Both the position numbers and the translations under genes were made by a program. Of a DNA stretch of 32,994 nucleotides, positions 3,667 to 31,718 are shown in pieces. The stretch is taken from the NCBI GenBank assembly GCA_944350335.1, contig CALVOQ010000005.1:1-32994 (forward strand), written 5' to 3'. Below the pieces are notes generated by a model. The model did not search any database and had not been told where the DNA came from. It saw only the letters and a list, made by a program, of their open reading frames with translations. The stretch is from an uncultured Bacilli bacterium. Its GTDB lineage: Bacteria; Bacillota_I; Bacilli_A; RF39; UBA660. The first letter of the stretch is position 1. Every line of letters begins with the position of its first letter.

Positions 3667-4278
3667 GTGAAGGAAGTGGTTGTTAACAATTTAATGGCCC
3701 CAATTATTAAATATAAAAATTATGATGAAGTTAAATTAGCCGAAATAAAATATGGGATTGAATCATTTTATTTAACAATTACCAAGACTATTGTAATATT
3801 TGGCTTATCATATTTCTTGGGGACCATTAAAACTTTGTTACTATTTATGTTTTTTTACACACTGCTGAGGGTTAATGGTTACGGATTACATGCCAAAAAA
3901 AGTTGGCAATGCTGGCTAGGTTCAACTTTAGTATTCCTGTTGATGCCCTATTTATGCTTGGTTACAAATATTCAAAAACCATATTTAATAGTTATAGCCT
4001 TCATTTGTTTATTACTAGCATTTAAATATGCTCCAGCTGATACTGAAAAAAAACCCATTATAAGTAAAAGGAAAAGGCGTGTGCATAAATATCTGTGTTC
4101 GATAACGATAATTACGTACATTTATTTAATTTATTCTTTGCAAAGTACATACCTACAAAATATTTTATTTTTTTCAATTATTTTGGAAACCCTTATGATA
4201 TTGCCAATTAGTTATAAAATATTTAAACTGAAGTATGATAATTATATAAATTATTCAAATATAGATAGCGCAGTTTAA
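3667..4278 (+). CDS. agrB: AgrB-type membrane peptidase
   Basis: AgrB cleaves the C-terminal tail of the AgrD propeptide and closes it into a cyclic (thio)lactone during export. The protein is about 203 residues with four or more hydrophobic stretches. It carries the family signature as N-G-Y-G-L-H-A followed by K-K-S-W-Q-C; the His-to-Cys spacing of seven matches the catalytic His77/Cys84 pair of S. aureus AgrB. I choose GTG at 3667, 4 bases after AGGAGG; a TTG at 3652 lies upstream of that ribosome site. It is followed 29 bases later by agrD on the same strand. With agrD it is transcribed toward the origin, opposite to agrAC. Confidence 0.93.
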   Translation: MKEVVVNNLMAPIIKYKNYDEVKLAEIKYGIESFYLTITKTIVIFGLSYFLGTIKTLLLFMFFYTLLRVNGYGLHAKKSWQCWLGSTLVFLLMPYLCLVTNIQKPYLIVIAFICLLLAFKYAPADTEKKPIISKRKRRVHKYLCSITIITYIYLIYSLQSTYLQNILFFSIILETLMILPISYKIFKLKYDNYINYSNIDSAV

Positions 4279-4307
4279 GTATTTTTATAGAAAGGAAGGA
4301 GGTTAGT

Positions 4308-4427
4308 ATGAAATTATTTGCAACAGTTGTTTCTGCTTTAGGTGCATTTTTTGCATTAACTACAAGTGGCGCTTCATGGATTGGCTGGTTTGAAGAATCT
4401 GAAACACCTAAATCATTAATAAAATAA
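4308..4427 (+). CDS. agrD: AgrD-type autoinducing peptide precursor
   Basis: A 39-codon gene encoding the precursor of a secreted cyclic signal peptide. It has a hydrophobic, amphipathic leader (MKLFATVVSALGAFFAL), a central candidate signal segment SGASWIGWF, and an acidic tail EESETPKSLIK that matches the conserved AgrD tail (DEVEVPKEL in S. aureus). There is no cysteine at all, so the ring must be a lactone through serine. Ser23 to Phe28 would give a six-residue ring; Ser20 to Phe28 a nine-residue ring like the enterococcal pheromone GBAP. AAGGAGG lies 5 bases before the ATG, and a terminator follows. Its position right after agrB, the small size and the tail make the call firm; the mature peptide is inferred. 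Confidence 0.92.
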   Translation: MKLFATVVSALGAFFALTTSGASWIGWFEESETPKSLIK

Positions 4428-4474
4428 CATTAATATTGAAAAGATTTTTTAAAATTTTTTCTTAAATTTATAGG

Positions 4475-4501
4475 AACCCCTAGATTTCTCTAGAGGTTTT
4501 T
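4475..4501 (+). terminator. Intrinsic terminator of agrBD
   Basis: AACCCCTAGA and TCTAGAGGTT form a 10-bp stem with one mismatch around a TTTC loop, followed by a run of T. It ends the agrBD transcript on the plus strand. No clear terminator was found for the converging agrC transcript. Confidence 0.85.
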
Positions 4502-4668
4502 ATAAATATTTTTTTAATATTAATTTTACACTGTATTTATATTTGTGCTTTTATTTTTTATTAATATATAGACACAGCAAAATGCTTTAATTGTTATTAT
4601 AAGAATTTAATGCGAAAAAAGATAAAATGTTTTTTGATGACTGATAATAATTCAAATGGATAATGTGT
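4502..4668. other. AT-rich gap between the convergent agrBD and agrAC genes
   Basis: Together with the agrBD terminator this makes a gap of about 240 bases. The rest holds no supported gene: the longest plus-strand reading frame (4610-4663, 17 codons) has no ribosome site. No strong hairpin was found to end the minus-strand agrC transcript. Confidence 0.6.
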
Positions 4669-5973
4669 TTATTCAAATTTAATCTTTAATAATGTAACAA
4701 AATTACCGTTGTTATTTATGTATTGCTTATAAGTAATTGTTTTAGATTGCTTTTTTAATTGACTTGCCACATATAAACCCAACCCGCGATTTTGACCTTT
4801 GGAAGAATAGTATTTATTTTTTAATAAGCTTACATCTACATTTCCATCAAAGCTATTTTCAATGTAAAATACTATGTATTTTTCTTCTTTGTATATGTCA
4901 ATTATAATTAATTTTTTCTTACTTCTTAATGCCGATTCTATAGCATTATCTAAAAATATATTTAGTAATTTGCATAGTTTTGAATAATCTTTAGCATTAT
5001 CTTCATTTATAAACTTATTTAAGTTTTTAGTACAATAAAACACGATGTTTAATTTATTTTTTTCTATTGTATTCATTTTGTAATATAAGATTCCTTTTAT
5101 TCCATATGGTAAATGAGCTATATTGTTATAATAACTTCCCTTTTCAGAATATTTTTTTATTATGTCATTTAACGTGGCCGTATACTTTTTACTATTTTTA
5201 TTTTTAAAACTACTCAATAAAATTAGATTATTTAGCATTTCATGTTTATTAATCTTATACTGATCTAGTAATAGTTCATATTTTGTCATGTATTTTAAAA
5301 TTATTTTTTCGTTTTCAATAACACTAATTAATTGTAATTTATATATAATTATCAAGCACATGCAACATAATATAATTATTACTGCAACTAGGTTATTGTA
5401 ATAATTTGAAACACTTATATTAAACGTTAAAATAAATATAATATATACTATAAAAGCAAAAAATATTATAATCAACATTTTTATTGTCTTATTTCTTTTA
5501 ATTATTATTAAATCTATAGTTTTAACTAAAAATTTTTTTACCTTGGAAATGTGTATTATTAATAAGATACTTAAGTAAATTAGTAAAGAAAATAAGTTTC
5601 GCATAAATAATGTATCAGTAGTTGTTACTTCAAATGTATTAAAATTTAAAATTATAAAAGTAAACGAATACGTAATTTCAAATAAAATCTCTATGGTGTA
5701 TATGATTATCATTATCAGAAAAATTTTTCTTATGTCATCTTTATAAATAATATTTATTAAAACAATATTCAAGAAAAGATTTATAAATAATTTATATTGA
5801 TTAAATATTGATAGCCCCATGTAAATTTGTATTGCAGAAAAAAATAATATTATTATAAGCTGGTTTTTATATATTTTTTCTTTATGTCTTTTTGTTAAAT
5901 GTTTGTAAGTGATAAAAAATACAAAAACGCCATAAAACACAATTACATAAGAAAAAATGTAATTTAAACTCAT
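4669..5973 (-). CDS. agrC: AgrC-type sensor histidine kinase
   Basis: This is the membrane receptor for the cyclic peptide made by AgrB/AgrD. The 434-residue protein has six or seven hydrophobic segments in its first 215 residues (sensor part) and a cytoplasmic kinase core. The phospho-acceptor box reads INKHEMLNNLILLSS (about 241-255), like the H-box of the AgrC/HPK10 group. The GHKL ATPase follows, with N-box LLNIFLDNAIESALRSK and G-box GQNRGLGLYVASQLKK. It starts 1 base after the stop of agrA, so the two are co-transcribed, with the regulator first, unlike the S. aureus order B-D-C-A. The specific ligand is inferred from gene neighbourhood. Confidence 0.93.
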   Translation of the reverse strand: MSLNYIFSYVIVFYGVFVFFITYKHLTKRHKEKIYKNQLIIILFFSAIQIYMGLSIFNQYKLFINLFLNIVLINIIYKDDIRKIFLIMIIIYTIEILFEITYSFTFIILNFNTFEVTTTDTLFMRNLFSLLIYLSILLIIHISKVKKFLVKTIDLIIIKRNKTIKMLIIIFFAFIVYIIFILTFNISVSNYYNNLVAVIIILCCMCLIIIYKLQLISVIENEKIILKYMTKYELLLDQYKINKHEMLNNLILLSSFKNKNSKKYTATLNDIIKKYSEKGSYYNNIAHLPYGIKGILYYKMNTIEKNKLNIVFYCTKNLNKFINEDNAKDYSKLCKLLNIFLDNAIESALRSKKKLIIIDIYKEEKYIVFYIENSFDGNVDVSLLKNKYYSSKGQNRGLGLYVASQLKKQSKTITYKQYINNNGNFVTLLKIKFE

Positions 5974-5974
5974 T

Positions 5975-6679
5975 TTACTTTAAATCCTTCTTATGAGTTT
6001 TTGATAAAAAGTATATTTCTTCTCCTGTTTCAAATATTATTTTATTATCTTTCCAAACATATGCTTCAACTTTGTCAGTATTTACTAAACATGCTTTATG
6101 AGTAAATTTAAACCTGCTATCTAGTTTTTTAGACAAATCCGATATGTTAATAATTATTTTGTATTTTTTGTTATTTGTTGTGTTTATTATACATTTTCTT
6201 TCAACCGTATCTCTATAAACATACAATATTTTATTCATATCTAAATTATAGTCTATACCCTTGTACTTAAAATTTAATGTTTTTTTGGTACTAAATTGTT
6301 TAAAACAAATATCAAATAATTCATGAAGATTCTTCTCTGCTTCAAATTGTTTATTTACAAAATCTAAAATTTGTAATCTTTGTTTAAATGTATCATATGC
6401 CATTCCGCCGTTAACGGTAAAAATAATTATAGGACTTAGCCAATCGGTTTCTCTTAATTTCCTAGATAAGTCTATTGCAGTTGTACTTGGCAATTCAAAA
6501 TCAAATATGTATATGTTATGTTCATCTGATAAGCTCATATGTTCTTCTAACTCTTTGTTATAATCTTCAAACTCGATTATGTCAAATTCTATTTTATTTT
6601 TCATCATGTACTTTAAAATTATATTTTTTATTTTTTTCCTATGCAATTTATTATCTTCCACTACAACAAAGTTCACCAT
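5975..6679 (-). CDS. agrA: AgrA-type LytTR response regulator
   Basis: A 234-residue two-component regulator. The receiver domain (1 to about 125) has the acidic pair in VVVEDNK, the phospho-acceptor Asp in IYIFDFELP, the switch Thr in IIFTVNG and the conserved Lys in FVNK. The C-terminal LytTR DNA-binding domain (about 135-234) includes ILYVYRDTVERKCII, FKFTHKACLVNTDKV and a final FLSKTHKKDL. By family knowledge it binds tandem repeats upstream of its targets, often agrB. The ATG follows AAGAAGAGGTAATAATT. The gap of 88 bases upstream holds a candidate TATATT -10 preceded by TG, but no good -35. Confidence 0.93.
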   Translation of the reverse strand: MVNFVVVEDNKLHRKKIKNIILKYMMKNKIEFDIIEFEDYNKELEEHMSLSDEHNIYIFDFELPSTTAIDLSRKLRETDWLSPIIIFTVNGGMAYDTFKQRLQILDFVNKQFEAEKNLHELFDICFKQFSTKKTLNFKYKGIDYNLDMNKILYVYRDTVERKCIINTTNNKKYKIIINISDLSKKLDSRFKFTHKACLVNTDKVEAYVWKDNKIIFETGEEIYFLSKTHKKDLK

Positions 6680-6767
6680 AATTATTACCTCTTCTTATCC
6701 TTTATGCTATTAAATATATCACAATTTTAGCTAAAAATAAAGGAATTAATTACCTAGATGAGGTTAA

Positions 6768-7019
6768 TCAAATAAGTGACCTTTTGGTTTTTAAATATTT
6801 TCTTCTTGTTGCTTCACCTCCTTTTATATGCCTCATTGCCAAATGCTTTTTTAATATTTTTTCAACTTCTACAAATAATTCTAAGTTAATAGATTTTAGT
6901 CTATATTTTAAATCTTTATGAACCGTACTTTTGCTAACGTTAAATTGTTTAGCTATTTCTCTAATAGTTTTACTTGTTTCTATTATATATGTAGCTTCAT
7001 TTTTTATTCTTTCTAGCAT
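6768..7019 (-). CDS. spoIIID: SpoIIID, mother-cell sporulation transcription factor
   Basis: SpoIIID is a small helix-turn-helix protein that activates or represses many sigma-E genes and helps turn on sigma-K in the mother cell. The 83-residue product carries the diagnostic core TIREIAKQFNVSKSTVHKDL (HTH, about 18-37) and a basic C-terminal section AMRHIKGGEATRRKY, both nearly the same as in B. subtilis. The nearest good ribosome site, AAGGGGG, is 15 bases before the ATG, an unusually long spacing, so translation may be weak or the true control more complex. It follows spoIIQ and that gene's terminator, as in the conserved spoIID-spoIIQ-spoIIID order. Confidence 0.96.
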   Translation of the reverse strand: MLERIKNEATYIIETSKTIREIAKQFNVSKSTVHKDLKYRLKSINLELFVEVEKILKKHLAMRHIKGGEATRRKYLKTKRSLI

Positions 7020-7062
7020 TTGTATTTTACATAACCCCCTTACTAACTATATTTAATAAATA

Positions 7063-7084
7063 TAAAAAAAGACCTATAGGTCTT
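7063..7084 (-). terminator. Intrinsic terminator of spoIIQ
   Basis: On the minus strand AAGACC-TATA-GGTCTT is a perfect 6-bp stem followed by T residues (seven in a row counting the end of the stem). The TAG stop codon of spoIIQ is inside the hairpin. Confidence 0.88.
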
Positions 7085-7697
7085 CAAAATTTAATGTATA
7101 AAAACTTTCTGGATCGATTAATTCACCATTATAATAAACTTCAAAATGTAGCGATGTATTATAGTTTGTATTAATTTTTGATGTTCCACTAGTTCCAATA
7201 ATTGTTCCTTGATTAATTTTGTCGCCTTGTTCTATTTCTATGTTATCTATACCTTGGTATACTGTTATAATATTTTTTTCATGTTTTATTTTAACTATCT
7301 TACCTAATGTTGAATCTGTTTCAATTGATATAACTTCTCCGTCTAAAACAGAAACTATATCAAATGTTTCTTCACTTATATAATCTACGCCAGAATTTTG
7401 CATATATGTATTTTCATATAAAATCAAACTGTTTTGTTGTCTCTCTTCATCTGCTTCGAAGTCGTAAAAATATTTTCCTATTGTTACTTTTTCGGATAAA
7501 TATGGTTTAATTATTGTATGCCCTACATCTACTACTGGTAATATATTTTCGAATTGCGTTTGTATAGAATAATTATAATCTTTTGGTATAGTAAGATACT
7601 TGTTTATACTTGTAATAACTAGTACTATACTTGCAATTATCAATGTTACAGCTACTAAATATATTGATGGCACAATTAATTTTTTTACTTTAATCAT
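7074..7697 (-). CDS. spoIIQ: SpoIIQ-like M23/LytM-fold sporulation protein
   Basis: SpoIIQ is made in the forespore and reaches across the intermembrane space to SpoIIIAH, supporting engulfment and the feeding channel. The 207-residue protein has one N-terminal membrane helix (about 8-30) and a C-terminal LytM domain (about 120-205) with SGVDY, GKIVKIKH, IEQGDKINQGTIIGTSG and LHFEVY. Two metal or catalytic histidines are absent: the HxGxD motif reads N-S-G-V-D and the HxH motif reads S-L-H. It therefore looks like a scaffold without peptidase activity; B. subtilis SpoIIQ is also degenerate. It lies between spoIID and spoIIID, which supports the name. A 9-base inverted repeat frames its ribosome site. 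Confidence 0.88.
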   Translation of the reverse strand: MIKVKKLIVPSIYLVAVTLIIASIVLVITSINKYLTIPKDYNYSIQTQFENILPVVDVGHTIIKPYLSEKVTIGKYFYDFEADEERQQNSLILYENTYMQNSGVDYISEETFDIVSVLDGEVISIETDSTLGKIVKIKHEKNIITVYQGIDNIEIEQGDKINQGTIIGTSGTSKINTNYNTSLHFEVYYNGELIDPESFYTLNFEDL

Positions 7698-7730
7698 TTG
7701 TTCACTCTCCTACTTATAATTGTGAACAAA
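7697..7730. promoter_or_regulatory. 9-bp inverted repeat around the spoIIQ ribosome site
   Basis: TTTGTTCAC (7697-7705) and GTGAACAAA (7722-7730) are perfect inverted repeats 16 bases apart. The unit overlaps the last base of the spoIIQ start codon and encloses AGGAGA, the Shine-Dalgarno sequence. It could be an operator dyad or an RNA hairpin that presents or masks the ribosome site. Confidence 0.55.
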
Positions 7731-7748
7731 TTTGTTTTATTTATACAT

Positions 7749-8663
7749 TTATTTGACTATTTCTATTCCACTATAATAATGTTTTAATATTTCATCATAA
7801 GTATAACCTATTTTTGCAAGTTCGTTAGCGCCGTATTGACTCATGCCTACTCCATGTCCATAGCCTTTTGTTACTATTACTACTCCGCCTTCTACTATAG
7901 AAATATCAAAATCAGTAGATCTTAAATTTAAAAGTTGTCTAATTTCTATACCCGAATATATTTTATCGTTTATTGTTATTGTTTCTACTCTGTTTGATTC
8001 TGTTCTTGTTATATTTCCAATTTTTATATTTGGATTTTCTATTAAGTTTAATTTGCTTAAAAATTCTTCTTTATTTATTAAGATTTTGTTATAAAATTGT
8101 TTAGTATTCTTGTCGTATGGGGATTCTACACTTATCAGATAATCTAATTGTTCGCCAAATACATTTTCTACATTTTCTGTATATCCGTTTGACGTAGAAA
8201 AGTAATATGCTTTAATTATATTATCTTCATATGTCATATATTCTCCAGTGGTATCTTTTACTGCTTTTTCTATCTTGTGTAAATATTTTTGATAACTTTC
8301 TTGCCATTTATTTTGAAGTTCTTCACTAGTATTATAACATTGATCATTTGTAGTGGAAGAAATTGTATTATTTTTATTCACTTGGAGCTTATTTAAAACG
8401 TATGTCCGAGCTGCTACTGCACCTGCTTTTAATGCTTCTTCTTCAAAAAGAGCGGGCATTTCACAGCCTAAAACCCCAGTCACATATTCTTCTAAATTTA
8501 GTTCAATAGTGACATTTTCTTTATCAACTTTGACTTTTACATTTGTCGATTCGGATAATTCTTTGTTATTACTAATAATTTCTTGATTTTTTAATTTTGG
8601 AGTAGCAACTAAAAGTAAAATAATTACTACTAAAAAGAATATATAAATGTATTTTGATTTCAT
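7749..8663 (-). CDS. spoIID: SpoIID, sporulation lytic transglycosylase
   Basis: SpoIID cuts septal peptidoglycan glycan strands during engulfment, together with SpoIIM and SpoIIP. The 304-residue protein has an N-terminal membrane anchor (about 5-22) and the SpoIID domain with LEEYVTGVLGCEMPA, holding the catalytic Glu of EMPA, then EALKAGAVAARTYVL, the STSNGYTENVENVFG segment, and the C-terminal signature KGYGHGVGMSQYGAN. It starts 14 bases after the rpiB stop with no recognisable Shine-Dalgarno sequence, which is unusual here and suggests coupling to rpiB or weak initiation. The downstream neighbour is spoIIQ. Confidence 0.96.
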   Translation of the reverse strand: MKSKYIYIFFLVVIILLLVATPKLKNQEIISNNKELSESTNVKVKVDKENVTIELNLEEYVTGVLGCEMPALFEEEALKAGAVAARTYVLNKLQVNKNNTISSTTNDQCYNTSEELQNKWQESYQKYLHKIEKAVKDTTGEYMTYEDNIIKAYYFSTSNGYTENVENVFGEQLDYLISVESPYDKNTKQFYNKILINKEEFLSKLNLIENPNIKIGNITRTESNRVETITINDKIYSGIEIRQLLNLRSTDFDISIVEGGVVIVTKGYGHGVGMSQYGANELAKIGYTYDEILKHYYSGIEIVK

Positions 8664-8677
8664 GTATTTATATATTC

Positions 8678-9133
8678 TTATTTCTTATTTTTAGAACTAT
8701 TTTTTTCTAAATTTTTTATTTTTGTTATCCTTTTTTTGTATCTTTCGCTATCTATAAATTCTGCTTTCATATATTTATCTAGCATGTCTTTAACAACAAG
8801 TATATTTTTTTTAGAACTAATACTTATAACGTTTGCATTATTATGCGCTTTAGCGTAATACGCTTCTTCTTCATTGTCAATTTTCGCACACATAATGCCT
8901 TTTATTTTGTTCGCGGCAATAGTCATTCCAATTCCGGTACCACATATGAGTATTCCAAAATCCAGCTTATCTTTTTTTACGTTTTCACATAGTTTTTTTG
9001 CATAATCTACATAGTCAACAATCACACCGGAATCCGTCCCATAATCTATAATTATATTATCTTTGCTTAAATATTTAATAACTTTATTTTTAAGTGCGTA
9101 TCCTCGGTGGTCACATGCTATACCTATTTTCAT
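8678..9133 (-). CDS. rpiB: Ribose 5-phosphate isomerase B
   Basis: RpiB interconverts ribose 5-phosphate and ribulose 5-phosphate in the pentose phosphate pathway. The 151-residue product has IACDHRGYALK near the N-terminus (substrate-binding Asp-His), the active-site loop GILICGTGIGM with its Cys, IAANKIKGIMCAK and the HNNANVI segment. The C-terminal arginine pair appears as R-Y-K-K-R, although the usual GGRH wording is changed. GAGGTGATAAT precedes the ATG. In B. subtilis the homologue ywlF lies in the same prfA-spoIIR-mntP neighbourhood. Related sugar-phosphate isomerases (LacA/LacB) are alternatives but no lac genes are nearby. Confidence 0.92.
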   Translation of the reverse strand: MKIGIACDHRGYALKNKVIKYLSKDNIIIDYGTDSGVIVDYVDYAKKLCENVKKDKLDFGILICGTGIGMTIAANKIKGIMCAKIDNEEEAYYAKAHNNANVISISSKKNILVVKDMLDKYMKAEFIDSERYKKRITKIKNLEKNSSKNKK

Positions 9134-9177
9134 ATTATCACCTCTTTCATTATAGCATTTAAGAATTTTTTTTCAAT

Positions 9178-9197
9178 AAAAAAAGACCTTTGTCTTT
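9178..9197 (-). terminator. Intrinsic terminator of rpmE
   Basis: On the minus strand AAAGAC-AAAG-GTCTTT followed by T residues forms a short perfect hairpin. The last two bases of the rpmE stop codon TAA are in the first arm. Confidence 0.82.
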
Positions 9198-9393
9198 ATT
9201 TTATTCCATACTTATCTTTGAACTTTTGTACATTGCCTGTTTTAGCTGTCATATGCTTTCCAGTGTAAAATGAATGACATTTTGGACATGTTTCTAGTTG
9301 TATTTCTTCTAAAGTTGATTTTGTAGTAAACTCATATCCACATGCACACCTTACTTTACATTCTTTTAGTTCTGGATGAATTCCTTTTTTCAT
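9196..9393 (-). CDS. rpmE: Ribosomal protein L31, zinc-binding type
   Basis: L31 joins the 50S subunit and helps bridge it to the 30S head. The 65-residue protein has the zinc-binding form, with cysteines in VRCACGYEF and LETCPKCHSFY and the typical end KFKDKYGIK. Keeping all four cysteines implies zinc-replete expression; a cysteine-free paralogue may exist elsewhere. I choose the ATG at 9393 because AAAGGAG lies 7 bases before it; the ATG two codons upstream is only 1 base from that site. A sigma-A promoter and a leader hairpin precede it. Confidence 0.95.
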   Translation of the reverse strand: MKKGIHPELKECKVRCACGYEFTTKSTLEEIQLETCPKCHSFYTGKHMTAKTGNVQKFKDKYGIK

Positions 9394-9411
9394 TTTCATT
9401 CTCCTTTCGCC

Positions 9412-9429
9412 ATAGTTACATATAACTAT
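9412..9429 (-). promoter_or_regulatory. Leader hairpin upstream of rpmE
   Basis: ATAGTTA-CATA-TAACTAT is a perfect 7-bp stem with a 4-base loop. It ends 4 bases before the rpmE ribosome site and lies in the predicted leader. L31 leader motifs that bind L31 are known in Firmicutes; whether this is one is inference. Confidence 0.45.
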
Positions 9430-9444
9430 AGAAACTCTTAATGT

Positions 9445-9472
9445 ATTATATCATTTATTTTTGTTTCGTCAA
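9445..9472 (-). promoter_or_regulatory. Sigma-A promoter of rpmE
   Basis: On the minus strand TTGACG, 16 bases, then TATAAT. The predicted start near 9438 gives rpmE a leader of about 45 bases. Confidence 0.75.
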
Positions 9473-9477
9473 TGGTT

Positions 9478-10224
9478 TTAAATGAGTTTTTCTTCTTCAA
9501 CCAATTTAATAAGCTCATTTGAAATTAAATTGTATCCTTCTAAAGAGGGAAAAACGTTATTTTTGTTTGGTAAATATGTTTCCTTTTCTTTAAATGTATC
9601 ATATATATCTAAATAAAAAGTGTTTTTGTTTATTATTTCGTTAAATTTTAAGTCAATGTAGTTAAATATATTATCCATTGTTGTTTCATTTGTTTGTGAA
9701 AAAGGTATCGGATTATAATACCCAATAAATATAATAGGACCTTTATTGTACTTTCTTATTTTTTCTATTAATTTGTTTGCATCTTGAAACATTTCATCTA
9801 TATATTTTATTATTTTTTGTTTGTTTCCTATTTTAATATTGTCGTTATATTGTTTTAACTTATAAAACAATTCATCACTTCCCACGGATATTGTTATTAT
9901 ATCTGCTTTTTTGATTAAACTTGTTATAGTTAAGTTATTCTCTTCTTTTATTGTATAAACATTATCTATGTCATTTATTAAATCTGTTATTCTATAATCT
10001 GATTGTGTAAAAGTCTTATAATTATCGTTTACTTTGTATTTACTTTTTAAATAATTATAAAAATAATCAGTATAACTTTCCCCAAATGTATCAAATGGGG
10101 TTTGTCCTTTTGCTAAACCATCGCCTAGTGCTAAATACGTTATTTTTTTATCATTTGTTATATTGTATATAAAAATTATGATTATAGCACTAACTAAAAA
10201 AATTACAAATTTAATGTGTTTCAT
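9478..10224 (-). CDS. Membrane-anchored SGNH/GDSL-fold protein, catalytic residues missing
   Basis: A 248-residue protein with an N-terminal membrane helix (about 4-20), probably exposed outside the cell. The fold signature of SGNH hydrolases is visible: block I as YLALGDGLAKG, block III as ITISVGSDELF and block V as NNVFPSLEGYNLIS. Each catalytic position is changed: the nucleophile Ser of GDSL is Gly, the Asn of GxND is lost, and the Asp and His of DxxHP are Asn and Phe. The length and structure are otherwise intact, so it reads as a maintained pseudoenzyme rather than a decayed gene. I choose ATG 10224, 9 bases after AAGGAA. It follows murA by about 30 bases, suggesting a cell-envelope role. 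Function unknown. Confidence 0.8.
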   Translation of the reverse strand: MKHIKFVIFLVSAIIIIFIYNITNDKKITYLALGDGLAKGQTPFDTFGESYTDYFYNYLKSKYKVNDNYKTFTQSDYRITDLINDIDNVYTIKEENNLTITSLIKKADIITISVGSDELFYKLKQYNDNIKIGNKQKIIKYIDEMFQDANKLIEKIRKYNKGPIIFIGYYNPIPFSQTNETTMDNIFNYIDLKFNEIINKNTFYLDIYDTFKEKETYLPNKNNVFPSLEGYNLISNELIKLVEEEKLI

Positions 10225-10253
10225 AATTACCATTTCCTTTGTAATAATTTTAT

Positions 10254-11501
10254 TTATATTTCTTCTATTTTAGCACCAACTTTTTGCAACTTTATTATTA
10301 TGTCTTCGTAGCCTCTTAATATGTGTTCAGTATTGTCTATTATTGTTGTTCCTTCTGCTATAAGGGCAGCTATTACAAGCGATGCGCCTCCTCTTAAGTC
10401 AGTTGCATAAACATTATTTCCTTTTAATTTTGTCGGACCTTTAACATATAAGATATTACCATCGTATTCCGTATTTGCTCCCATTAGATTTAGATATTCT
10501 GTATGCTTAAACCTTGACTCATATATAGTTTCAATTATCTTGGAGTTTCCATTTGCTTGAGTTAATAGCGTTGTAAATGGTTGTTGTACATCTGTGGGAA
10601 ATCCTGGATATACTTGTGTCTTTATATTTACTGGTTTTATATTACTGATTTTTGATATTGTTATTTTATTGTTTGATATATTATATCTTCCACCTACTTC
10701 TACTAGCTTATCAAGTACTGAGTTTATATGTTCCTTTATTGCGCCTTCTATGGTCAGGTTTTTTCCTATTAAAGCTCCCAAAATTAGGTATGTTGAGGCC
10801 TCTATTCTATCTGGAAATACTTCTACTATTCCATTATCCAAATCACTGGTTCCTTCAATTATTATTGTACTTGTTCCTGCTCCATTTATTTGAGCACCCA
10901 TATTTATTAAAAATGATGCAATGTTAACTATTTCAGGCTCTTTCGCTGCGTTCTCTATTATTGTTGTTCCCTTCGCACCAACTGCAGCGAGCATCAAATT
11001 AATTGTTGCGCCAACACTGGCAAAATCTAAATATATTTTTGTTCCTATTAATTCTTCGGCTTCAAGTATATATTTGTTTTTAATTTGAGTTATTTTTACG
11101 CCAAGTTTTTCAAACCCCTTTAAATGTAAATCAATTGGGCGATTTCCAATTTTACACCCTCCAGGAAAAGAAATTTCTGCTTTTTTAAATCTTGCTAACA
11201 TTGCCCCCATATAATAATAGGATGCTCTCATCATTTGGCTCAATTCTTCTGGAATAGCATTGTACTTAATATTAGTAGTATCTATCGTTATAATGTCTTC
11301 TTTTATTGATACTTGACAGTTTAGTAATTCAGTTATTTTAATTAAATATTCTATATCACTTATTTTAGGTACGTTAAATATAGTACTTCTTGTTTTAGAT
11401 AATATTGCAGCTGGTATTAAAGCAACAGCACTATTTTTGGCTCCGCTTATTTTTATACTGCCAGTTAATACATTGCCTCCTTCAATCTTTAATTTAGACA
11501 T
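10254..11501 (-). CDS. murA: UDP-N-acetylglucosamine 1-carboxyvinyltransferase
   Basis: MurA adds enolpyruvate from PEP to UDP-GlcNAc, the first committed step of peptidoglycan synthesis, in the cytoplasm. The 415-residue product has ISGAKNSAVALIPAAIL near the N-terminus, the catalytic loop GGCKIGNRPIDLHLKGFE with the active Cys retained (the residue attacked by fosfomycin), the central TDVQQPF region and the C-terminal DLRGGASLVIAALIAEG. GGGAGG lies 7 bases before the ATG. It follows fba by 12 bases and probably shares its promoter. Bacillota often have two MurA copies; which one this is cannot be decided, although both fba-murA and murA-spoIID orders exist in B. subtilis. Confidence 0.97.
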   Translation of the reverse strand: MSKLKIEGGNVLTGSIKISGAKNSAVALIPAAILSKTRSTIFNVPKISDIEYLIKITELLNCQVSIKEDIITIDTTNIKYNAIPEELSQMMRASYYYMGAMLARFKKAEISFPGGCKIGNRPIDLHLKGFEKLGVKITQIKNKYILEAEELIGTKIYLDFASVGATINLMLAAVGAKGTTIIENAAKEPEIVNIASFLINMGAQINGAGTSTIIIEGTSDLDNGIVEVFPDRIEASTYLILGALIGKNLTIEGAIKEHINSVLDKLVEVGGRYNISNNKITISKISNIKPVNIKTQVYPGFPTDVQQPFTTLLTQANGNSKIIETIYESRFKHTEYLNLMGANTEYDGNILYVKGPTKLKGNNVYATDLRGGASLVIAALIAEGTTIIDNTEHILRGYEDIIIKLQKVGAKIEEI

Positions 11502-28861: not shown

Positions 28862-29983
28862 ATGAAATTTAAAATTAAAAAAAATATTTTATTAGAAGGA
28901 TTAAATAATGTTAGTAAGGCTTTATCAAATAGAAATATTATACCTGTATTAAATGGGATACTATTTAATTTAACAAACAAGGGTTTATCTTTAACAGCTA
29001 CAGATAATGATTTAACTATTAAAACTTTTATAGATAAAAGTGATATTATCAACATTGATAGTGAAGGTAGTGTTGTTATAATAGGTAGATACGTTTTAGA
29101 TATTATTCGTAAGTTACCTTGTGAAGAGGTTGAAATAGAAGAAATAGAAGGTGGGAAGGCTATAATTTCTACACCCAATGCAAAATATAATTTAAATTGT
29201 TTTGATATTAATGACTTTCCAAAAATTGATATTGTGGAAAATGATAAACCTATTAAATTATTAACAGGTAAGTTTAAAGAAATAGTGAATCAAACAGTTT
29301 TTTCAACATCTATGCAGGAAAGTAGACCTTTATTAACAGGTATTAACTTGAAAATAATAGGTAATTTATTAGAAACTGTAGCTACTGATTCTTATAGACT
29401 TTCTAAAAAAATAATAAAACTTGATAAAAATGTGGATAATAATATTAATATAGTGATTCCAGCAAAAAATGTTATTGAACTAATTAAAATAATAGAAAAT
29501 GAAGAAAGTGAATTAGTATTATACTGTTTTAATAATAAAATTTTATTTAAATATGAAAATATTTTATTTCAATCAAGTCTATTAAATGGAACTTATCCTA
29601 ATACTGATACATTGATTCCAACTGAATTTCAAACTAAGTTACAATTAAATTTAAATGATTTTTATGATGTGGTTGATAGGGCAGCATTATTAACACAAGT
29701 TAAAGATAAAAATATAGTTCAATTAGAATTAAAAGATAATAATATTATAATTACTAGTTCTAGTCCTGAAATAGGTAAAGTTGAAGAGGTAATGCCTATT
29801 AAAGCTTTAACTGGTCCAAATATAAAAATATCTTTTAGCGCAAAGTTTATGATGGATGCATTAAAAAGTTTTACAAGTGAAGAAGTTATAATAATGCTAA
29901 ATGGAGATATTAAACCAATTATAATAAAAGAGTCTGAAGATGGAGATTTAACACAACTTATTTTGCCTATTAAGACATATTAA
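28862..29983 (+). CDS. dnaN: DNA polymerase III beta clamp
   Basis: The sliding clamp holds DNA polymerase and repair factors on DNA. The 373-residue protein has normal length and the three-domain clamp layout: LLEGLNNVSKALSNRNIIPVL at the start, ESRPLLTGINLKI with ATDSYRLSKK in the middle, and the C-terminal end DLTQLILPIKTY, close to the family ending that forms the partner-binding pocket. AAGGAAGGG precedes the ATG. A hairpin terminator follows, so comK downstream is a separate unit. Three extra TTATTAACA sequences inside the gene (29258, 29330, 29687) encode Leu-Leu-Thr and may be chance. Confidence 0.98.
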   Translation: MKFKIKKNILLEGLNNVSKALSNRNIIPVLNGILFNLTNKGLSLTATDNDLTIKTFIDKSDIINIDSEGSVVIIGRYVLDIIRKLPCEEVEIEEIEGGKAIISTPNAKYNLNCFDINDFPKIDIVENDKPIKLLTGKFKEIVNQTVFSTSMQESRPLLTGINLKIIGNLLETVATDSYRLSKKIIKLDKNVDNNINIVIPAKNVIELIKIIENEESELVLYCFNNKILFKYENILFQSSLLNGTYPNTDTLIPTEFQTKLQLNLNDFYDVVDRAALLTQVKDKNIVQLELKDNNIIITSSSPEIGKVEEVMPIKALTGPNIKISFSAKFMMDALKSFTSEEVIIMLNGDIKPIIIKESEDGDLTQLILPIKTY

Positions 29984-30009
29984 AGAAAATTTAATTTTTC
30001 TTTTTTTTT
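29982..30009 (+). terminator. Terminator of dnaN
   Basis: AAAGAAAA-TTTAAT-TTTTCTTT is a perfect but A/T-rich 8-bp stem followed by T residues. It starts at the dnaN stop codon. Weak in pairing energy but well placed. Confidence 0.6.
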
Positions 30010-30050
30010 GACAAAAAATGACATTTATCGACAAATTTATATGTTATAAT
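30010..30050 (+). promoter_or_regulatory. comK promoter with phased GACA repeats and a ComK-like AT-box
   Basis: TATAAT at 30045-30050 is a good -10, but the hexamer 17 bases upstream (CATTTA) is a poor -35, which suggests an activated promoter. GACA occurs at 30010, 30020 and 30030, exactly one helical turn apart. Bases 30015-30027 read AAAA-N5-TTTA, one base from the ComK AT-box AAAA-N5-TTTT, so autoregulation is possible. In such AT-rich DNA the box alone is weak evidence. Confidence 0.5.
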
Positions 30051-30083
30051 GGGAGTATTAATTTCAAGAACGGGGGTGATAAG

Positions 30084-30536
30084 ATGGAATATGAAATTAA
30101 TAATAATACTCTTTATATTTGTGCGTTAGAAGGTAAAAAAACTAAAATATATGAATCTGATGCGGAATATGAAGTAAATATTAGTGCTAGTAAAGTAATT
30201 GAACATAGTTGTGAATATTTTGGATCTACTATGGAAGGTAGACAATTAGGAACAAAATCTTTAATTGGTGTTACTCATAAGTCACCAATATTTATTGAAG
30301 AAAGTTCAAATATTATATTTTTTCCTTTAAATTCTCCAAGAAATGAAATGTGTTCTTGGGTAAGTTTTAATAATGTTTTAAGTTATAAGCAAGGAAAAAA
30401 TCAAAAAACAACTATTATAAGATTTAAAAATGGTAAAGAATTAGAAGTTTTTGCTAGTATTGGAACAATAACTAATCAAATTTTGCGTTCATCTAGACTA
30501 CAAGTAGTATTAAATGATAGAAAACAAAGAATTTGA
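30084..30536 (+). CDS. comK: ComK-family competence transcription factor
   Basis: ComK is the master activator of DNA-uptake genes in Bacillus. The 150-residue product aligns with B. subtilis ComK through its core: VIEHSCEYFGSTMEGRQLGT, then THKSPIFIEESSNIIFFPL and CSWVSFNNVLSY, then FKNGKELEVFASIGTITNQILRSSRLQ, with conserved Cys, Gly and HK-P positions. It stops about 35-40 residues short of B. subtilis ComK (192) and so lacks the C-terminal region with FMLYP that MecA binds for ClpCP degradation. I choose ATG 30084, behind GGGGGTGAT. It occupies the place between dnaN and recF where Bacillus has the S4-domain gene yaaA. Whether it controls competence here is inference. Confidence 0.88.
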   Translation: MEYEINNNTLYICALEGKKTKIYESDAEYEVNISASKVIEHSCEYFGSTMEGRQLGTKSLIGVTHKSPIFIEESSNIIFFPLNSPRNEMCSWVSFNNVLSYKQGKNQKTTIIRFKNGKELEVFASIGTITNQILRSSRLQVVLNDRKQRI

Positions 30537-30556: not shown

Positions 30557-30565
30557 TGATATAAT
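30557..30565 (+). promoter_or_regulatory. Extended -10 promoter of recF-gyrB
   Basis: TG-A-TATAAT is a perfect extended -10; there is no recognisable -35. The expected start, near 30572, falls in the first arm of a long dyad. Confidence 0.6.
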
Positions 30566-30568
30566 TGG

Positions 30569-30600
30569 TAATAGGTATAGGTGTACTCGTATACCTATTA
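30569..30600 (+). repeat. 11-bp dyad at the recF-gyrB transcription start
   Basis: TAATAGGTATA (30569-30579) and TATACCTATTA (30590-30600) are perfect inverted repeats with a 10-base loop. The following bases are T-rich but not a clean T-run. It can be an operator over the start site, a 5' stabilising hairpin, or a poor terminator of comK. Confidence 0.65.
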
Positions 30601-30632: not shown

Positions 30633-31718
30633 ATGAATATCACTAACTTAGAGTTAAATAATTTTAGAAATTATAAAAAGTTAAAATTAAAAGATTTAGC
30701 AAAAACTAATGTTATAATTGGAAAAAATGGTATCGGAAAAACTAGTATATTGGAATCTATTTATGTATTATGTTTAGCTAGAAGTTTTAGAAGTAATATT
30801 GAACTTAATCTTATTAAATTAGATAGCGAATATTTAAAAATTAAAGGAGATATTTTAAGTAATTCTAAAATTAAAAAACTTGAATATTTTTTGTCAAAGT
30901 CGGGAAAAAAAACGAAGATAAATAATGTTTTAAAGAAAAAAATTAGCGATTTTATAAGTCAATATAAAGTAATTTTATATGCTCCTGATGAAGTAAAATT
31001 TATTAAAGATTCTCCTAGTAATCGTAGAAGTTATATTAATATTAGTTTGTCTCAATTAAATAAGTCTTACATTAAACTTTTAAATGATTATAATGTTTTA
31101 ATAAAGAATAAAAATGATTATTACAAGAAATTGTACATTAATTCTTTTATTGATGAATCTTACTTAGATGTTTTGGATTTAAAAATATCTGAACTGGGTT
31201 ATATGATTTATAAAAGTAGAAGAGATTTTATTGATAAAATTAATAATTATTTAAAAAAAATATGTAGGAAGTTGAAATTAGGTGATAAGATTAACCTAAA
31301 TTATGTTTCCCAATTTAACAATTTAAATGAAAATGATTTTATAAAATTGTTAAAAAAAAATAGAAAAAAAGAGATTCAGCAAGGCATTACTAAAACTGGT
31401 ATACATAGGGATGATTTTGAATTTTTATTAGATGATAAAATTGTTAAAGATTATTGTTCTCAAGGTGTTCAAAAAATGGTAATGTTAGCTTTAAAGTTAG
31501 CTGAAATGGAAGTGTTAATAAAAGATTATTATGAACAACCTATACTTTTATTAGATGATTTATTTAGTGAATTAGATGAAAAAAATCAAAATATTATTTT
31601 GGAAAATCTGAACAAGGATATTCAAATTTTTATTACTACAACAGATATTAATAATATTAAAAAAAATATTTTAAAGTCTGCAAAAGTTATTGATTTAGAT
31701 AGGATGGTGGAACGATGA
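30633..31718 (+). CDS. recF: DNA replication and repair protein RecF
   Basis: RecF, with RecO and RecR, loads RecA at single-strand gaps. The 361-residue SMC-like ATPase has Walker [18 protein letters not shown] (about 28-44), [20 protein letters not shown], the signature region [17 protein letters not shown] and Walker [21 protein letters not shown] precedes the ATG. Its TGA overlaps the ATG of gyrB by 4 bases, so the two are translationally coupled, as in many Bacillota. Confidence 0.97.

Follow-up and report, generated by a model that had tools for sequence, protein, structure and literature searches.

What holds a gene for a ComK-family regulator between dnaN and recF in a small-genome gut bacterium, and which signal is this gene placed to read? 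We addressed this question in the window, i.e. the whole stretch of 32,994 nucleotides analysed here from an uncultured RF39 bacterium, and in its relatives; the window's genome is an 818-kb draft of 66 contigs. The gene, its ribosome-binding site and its neighbours are arranged as follows:

28862..29983, plus strand: dnaN, the upstream neighbour (Pfam DNA_pol3_beta, three times)
30072..30078, plus strand: ribosome-binding site GGGGGTG, read from the sequence and kept in relatives
30084..30536, plus strand: comK, 150 aa (PF06338, E=3.5e-41; predicted model with pLDDT 94.6 and, as a lead, a LytTR-like fold)
30633..31718, plus strand: recF, the downstream neighbour (SMC_N/RecF domain), in conserved order

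In a PF06338 profile search of the whole genome, the product of 30084–30536 was the sole match, and the Pfam search of the window assigned it to ComK (E=6.2e-41; 140.1 bits, the cut-off being 22.3 bits) over profile positions 3–151 of 152. The same profile matched only B. subtilis among 14 control genomes. The start codon, ATG at 30084, lies 3' of GGGGGTG and is the start kept in relatives; a 172-aa frame beginning at 30018 was rejected as the extent of comK because it would read through the promoter described below. Besides comK, the dnaN–recF gap of the window holds no ORF of at least 60 aa. ComK measures 144–159 aa across the family, and ORFs of 134–163 aa were found in other families of the class. 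Judged by profile and length, the gene product is a genuine ComK-family regulator, as the earlier note on this DNA had recognised, and is full-length; 150 aa is the usual length in the class. Our literature search gave no paper on ComK or on competence in RF39.

The protein ends where B. subtilis ComK continues with FMLYPKEERTMIYDFILRELGERY, the C-terminus recognised by MecA (PMC8138137), and the ComK proteins of the family have no counterpart of this region. The earlier note had read the missing tail as the mark of a degradation-resistant ComK. The absence of the MecA-binding region was borne out; resistance to degradation as a distinctive trait was not. Specifically, MecA (PF05389) was detected in 0 of 40 genomes searched, with a search that detects B. 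subtilis and Lactococcus. Because MecA is absent in the relatives and a tail would have no partner, the missing tail tells little of stability, and because 150 aa is a class-normal length, it is not visibly 'lost' in the window's protein. Thus, neither an FMLYP-type motif nor a mecA gene, the two marks of B. subtilis-type MecA/ClpC control of ComK, was found.

The position of the gene turned out to be shared. Pfam confirmed dnaA, dnaN and (via the RecF/SMC domain) recF around comK, and by profile search each of the 37 family genomes carries exactly one ComK. We read 30 family loci: dnaN and recF adjoin comK in 27, one locus is truncated where its contig ends, and in two the gene has moved (L005, L007). 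We also surveyed 80 comK loci from named genomes; these are MAGs, recorded as uncultured Bacilli, Tenericutes, Mollicutes or Erysipelotrichaceae, and many were sampled from animal guts. Both neighbours lie within 400 bp of comK in 62 of the loci; seven retain a single neighbour (in most cases at the edge of a contig), six have an insertion and five have moved. In other families of the class, neither dnaN nor recF was found near the ComK gene. By this survey, the dnaN–comK–recF arrangement seen in the window is lineage-wide and no peculiarity of this genome.

Upstream of comK lies a promoter with three regularly spaced elements:

30007..30013, plus strand: 0A-like box 1, TTTGACA (6/7 to TTCGACA), first of a triple GACA array
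30017..30023, plus strand: 0A-like box 2, AATGACA (4/7, GACA core kept), 10 bp from box 1
30027..30033, plus strand: 0A-like box 3, ATCGACA (6/7, all three Spo0A-contacted bases kept), 10 bp from box 2
30042..30050, plus strand: comK extended -10, TGTTATAAT, read from the sequence

TTCGACA is the reverse complement of the Spo0A box TGTCGAA, in which Spo0A contacts G2, C4 and G5 (PMC3485338). The three boxes in the window are all imperfect, and only box 3 has every contacted base. Their GACA cores lie at 30010, 30020 and 30030; the -10 hexamer follows the end of box 2 by 21 nt and the end of box 3 by 11 nt, and the phasing of box 3 relative to the -10 is kept across species. The exact pattern GACA-N6-GACA-N6-GACA occurs a single time in the window's genome, namely at the comK promoter, and the reversed-pattern control occurs 0 times in 37 genomes. 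Elsewhere, triple arrays were found before spo0A in G017 and before a kinase-like gene in G018.

Across relatives, TCGACA lies upstream of 45 of 76 comK genes versus 5 of 312 other genes of the same loci (Fisher p ~1e-32). With similar sequences removed beforehand, 30 of 59 comK upstream regions contain the word, whereas 200 shuffles that preserved dinucleotides gave 0.79 on average and never more than 4. Read backwards, the word was found in 0/59, and in the opposite orientation in 1/59. Tandem TTCGACA boxes at comK share one orientation. The GACA-to-GACA spacing is 10 in 25 pairs, 20 in 16 and another value in 8, and extended -10s are located almost exclusively 11/12, 21/22 or 31/32 nt downstream of GACA. 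The box at 21/22 bp usually fills the role of the -35, a result that is partly due to how promoters were picked. At the level of sequence, putative 0A boxes are therefore in excess over chance at comK and stand in tandem at 10/20-bp spacing. A comK box, counted if it has at most one mismatch or a T plus the GACA core, is present in 34 of 37 family genomes. Two of the exceptions (G025, G028) have an intact Spo0A, yet no box at comK; in the third (G029), the comK region is cut by a contig end.

The protein expected to read such boxes is encoded in the same genome. Its Spo0A matches the NCBIfam equivalog TIGR02875 with 276.7 bits against a cut-off of 200, and the recognition helix, SRVERAIRHAIEV, is identical to that of B. 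subtilis C-Spo0A (PDB 1lq1). SpoIVA is likewise encoded in the window's genome. Of the 37 family genomes, 36 gave a match to Spo0A and 35 to SpoIVA, so the window's bacterium and its family are probably spore formers; published predictions of sporulation for RF39 are mixed, and our counts are in line with them (PMC10868615). In the window's genus, a paired box also lies upstream of spo0A, which in the window's genome reads ATCGACA-AAA-TAAGACA, and of a membrane sensor kinase. As in B. subtilis and Clostridioides difficile, we find the TGTCGAA core, the contacted bases, the recognition helix and a likely autoregulation of spo0A (PMC3485338); the difference is that here comK and the sensor kinase are among few tandem-array targets in the genus.

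One genome (G010) provides a suggestive, if weak, natural case for Spo0A reading the boxes: its Spo0A helix is SSIERAISRVIEV, it is without SpoIVA, comK has moved and only TTCTACA remains. Because TTCTACA boxes are found despite an intact Spo0A helix in G014, G018 and G022, the change of helix and box in G010 alone proves nothing. In G019, the comK boxes are present and Spo0A was not found in the draft genome.

The boxed kinase is itself a recurrent gene: a HisKA/HATPase membrane kinase of 406 aa (404 in one genome), with tandem 0A boxes ~35 bp before its start. The boxed kinase was seen in five genomes of the genus (L230, L240, L242, L247, L252).

Because the conserved promoter element is a putative Spo0A-box array, the sporulation phosphorelay is indicated as the input of comK, and we conclude that Spo0A~P most likely controls comK directly. 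In the working model that we consider likely, Spo0A~P would bind the tandem 0A boxes of the comK promoter, which would substitute for the -35 element, and together with RNA polymerase would switch comK on upon entry into the sporulation decision; ComK, a DNA-binding transcription activator, would then act on DNA-uptake and pilus genes. In this model, we infer the binding of Spo0A to the boxes, activation over repression and control of the com genes by ComK. The conserved array suggests that one short circuit may link spore formation and DNA uptake in small-genome gut Bacilli.

Spo0A control of comK has been worked out in B. subtilis, where the layers MecA-ComS, Rok and CodY blur it. In that species, Spo0A~P binds PcomK, the promoter of a gene of the same protein family, directly, with activating sites A1–A3 and repressing sites R1–R2 (PMC3297582). 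The link as such is therefore known; to our knowledge, the tandem-array arrangement in this lineage is new. The lineage's boxes stand in 10-bp tandem at the -35 position, whereas the B. subtilis sites are scattered about a promoter that has a -35 itself. The lineage's ComK, at 150 aa, differs from that of B. subtilis in lacking the tail that MecA recognises, in the lack of MecA and in the dnaN–recF locus. If the model is correct, the retention of a clear 0A-box array at comK in a deep gut lineage that has no MecA would suggest that the link between sporulation and competence is old and workable in a very small genome. The prediction concerns bacteria that nobody yet grows, and B. subtilis could serve as a test host.

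On the output side of the model, we considered the genes on which ComK would act. Late competence genes, which the earlier note had proposed as a check together with paired AT-boxes, are present in the genome: a comEA–comEC pair on contig C21 (ComEC, TIGR00361, 246 vs 190 bits; ComEA, TIGR00426, 80 vs 53 bits), a PilB/GspE/ComGA-type ATPase with two pilins on C22 and a T2SSF platform protein on C32. The models for ComGA (NF041000, 269 vs 300) and full-length ComEA (TIGR01259, 121 vs 152) stayed below their cut-offs. In G007, a prepilin peptidase adjoins comGA. Paired AT-boxes (AAAAN5TTTT), the canonical pair known from B. subtilis ComK, are unenriched upstream of comGA (p=0.96) and comEA (p=0.89). 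Upstream of comGB there is a weak signal (p=0.014, uncorrected and with related sequences included), and upstream of comK the value is p=0.0008, which is confounded by a T-run and the boxes.

These results bear on the alternative that ComK serves another Spo0A-linked programme, e.g. a pilus or the use of DNA as food in starvation, rather than transformation. DprA (PF02481) was not found in the window's genome or in 22 of 23 family genomes, G021 being the exception, with a search that matched in 11 of 14 control genomes; because of this, transformation is uncertain. The missing AT-box enrichment at comEA and comGA points the same way, as does G008, in which ComEC was not found although ComK is present. 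On the other hand, comEA, ComEC, the ATPase, the platform protein and the pilins are retained in most of these genomes of only 0.8–1.7 Mb, and we regard this alternative as somewhat unlikely. A broader variant, in which ComK would belong to the sporulation programme and a minimal kinase–Spo0A–ComK circuit without MecA and DprA would fire DNA uptake during commitment to the spore, with the DNA used as nutrient or for recombination based on RecF instead of DprA, is doubtful.

It is also conceivable that Spo0A~P, on binding the boxes, acts as a repressor: its rising level would then shut competence off by way of the array and let the cell sporulate. In agreement with this, the boxes cover the -35 position of the comK promoter, and PcomK of B. 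subtilis is repressed from R1/R2, two sites close to the -35, which R1 overlaps (PMC3297582). However, none of the 33 testable comK promoters has a TTGACA-like -35 at 16–18 bp, and TGnTATAAT is present in only 5 comK upstream regions as opposed to 70/77 comK–recF gaps, in which it belongs to the recF promoter. Because the comK core promoter is weak, an activator fits better than a repressor. Moreover, the box is regularly 21/22 bp from the -10, which we take to be similar to the box-to--10 distance of the Spo0A-activated spoIIG promoter. We therefore consider repression unlikely and retain activation of comK by Spo0A~P as the preferred reading.

The gap downstream of comK contains elements that concern recF:

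30557..30565, plus strand: recF extended -10, TGATATAAT, of the TGnTATAAT type
30570..30599, plus strand: recF leader with the conserved GTATAGGTGTAC at 30575–30586, inside a possible hairpin

As predicted from these sequences, a separate extended -10 sets recF apart from comK. The proposal, already in the earlier note, that an origin-proximal comK ties competence to replication or gene dosage (by copy number, DnaA or RecF) is very unlikely: the conserved location speaks for it, and TTATCGACA, which comprises box 3 and the bases to its left, departs from a DnaA box at a single position, but the comK and recF promoters are separate, the family consensus TTCGACA has a G where the DnaA box has a C and repeats in 10-bp tandem phasing, and the box stays with comK at six loci where the gene has moved or been split from dnaN (L155, L147, L174, L108, L152, L175). 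Accordingly, we rejected both the GACA repeats as DnaA boxes, the window holding one near match, and a regulation tied to the dnaN–recF site, from which the box travels with comK. Because comK and recF are each served by a promoter of their own, a strong one in the case of recF, and the boxes follow a moved comK, the origin-proximal place looks like an inherited location that would have no regulatory role of its own.

In the recF leader, a motif GTATAGGAGTA(C/T) lies 3' of the recF -10 in many species, and its relaxed form was seen in 46/76 gaps (L097–L176). In the window's genus, it falls within the possible hairpin AATAGGTATA...TATACCTATT; a hairpin common to all recF leaders was rejected, as only some clades are able to form one. 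The Rfam search of the window returned no family.

We also compared the predicted structure of ComK (residues encoded by 30084–30533; pTM 0.89) with known folds. The six best fold matches are all LytTR domains, with Z values of 6.9–8.3 (the pneumococcal competence regulator ComE 8.3, B. cereus LytTR 7.8, AgrA 6.9–7.4), which fall in the range flagged for caution by the comparison tool; the next match has 4.4. Foldseek gave a best E of 1.7e-3 and query TM-scores of 0.35–0.45. Against this likeness to the LytTR domains of ComE and AgrA stand a sequence identity of 12–13%, the lack of a receiver domain in ComK and the search of the ComK profile against sequences of solved structures, which gave no match. 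We treat a LytTR-like DNA-binding fold of ComK as a lead from the predicted model.

Several observations concern the pilus genes. The divergent pilin/comGA promoter region (L091 5665–5783; comGA upstream of L035–L057) contains a near-palindrome, which in several genera reads approximately TTATTCTAAATATATTATATAATATATTTAGAATAA and in the window's genus TTTCTATT...AATAGAAA, and which is a candidate operator by sequence and not obviously a ComK AT-box pair. In L091, a Hpt-receiver protein (7713–8489, Pfam) and an apparent hybrid sensor kinase (8499–10331, by sequence reading) adjoin a comG-type pilin and could possibly form a phosphorelay for Spo0A or the pilus. Apart from the comG-type genes, L093 carries at 4060–7715 a Tad-type pilus/secretion cluster with a CpaF-like ATPase and its neighbours.
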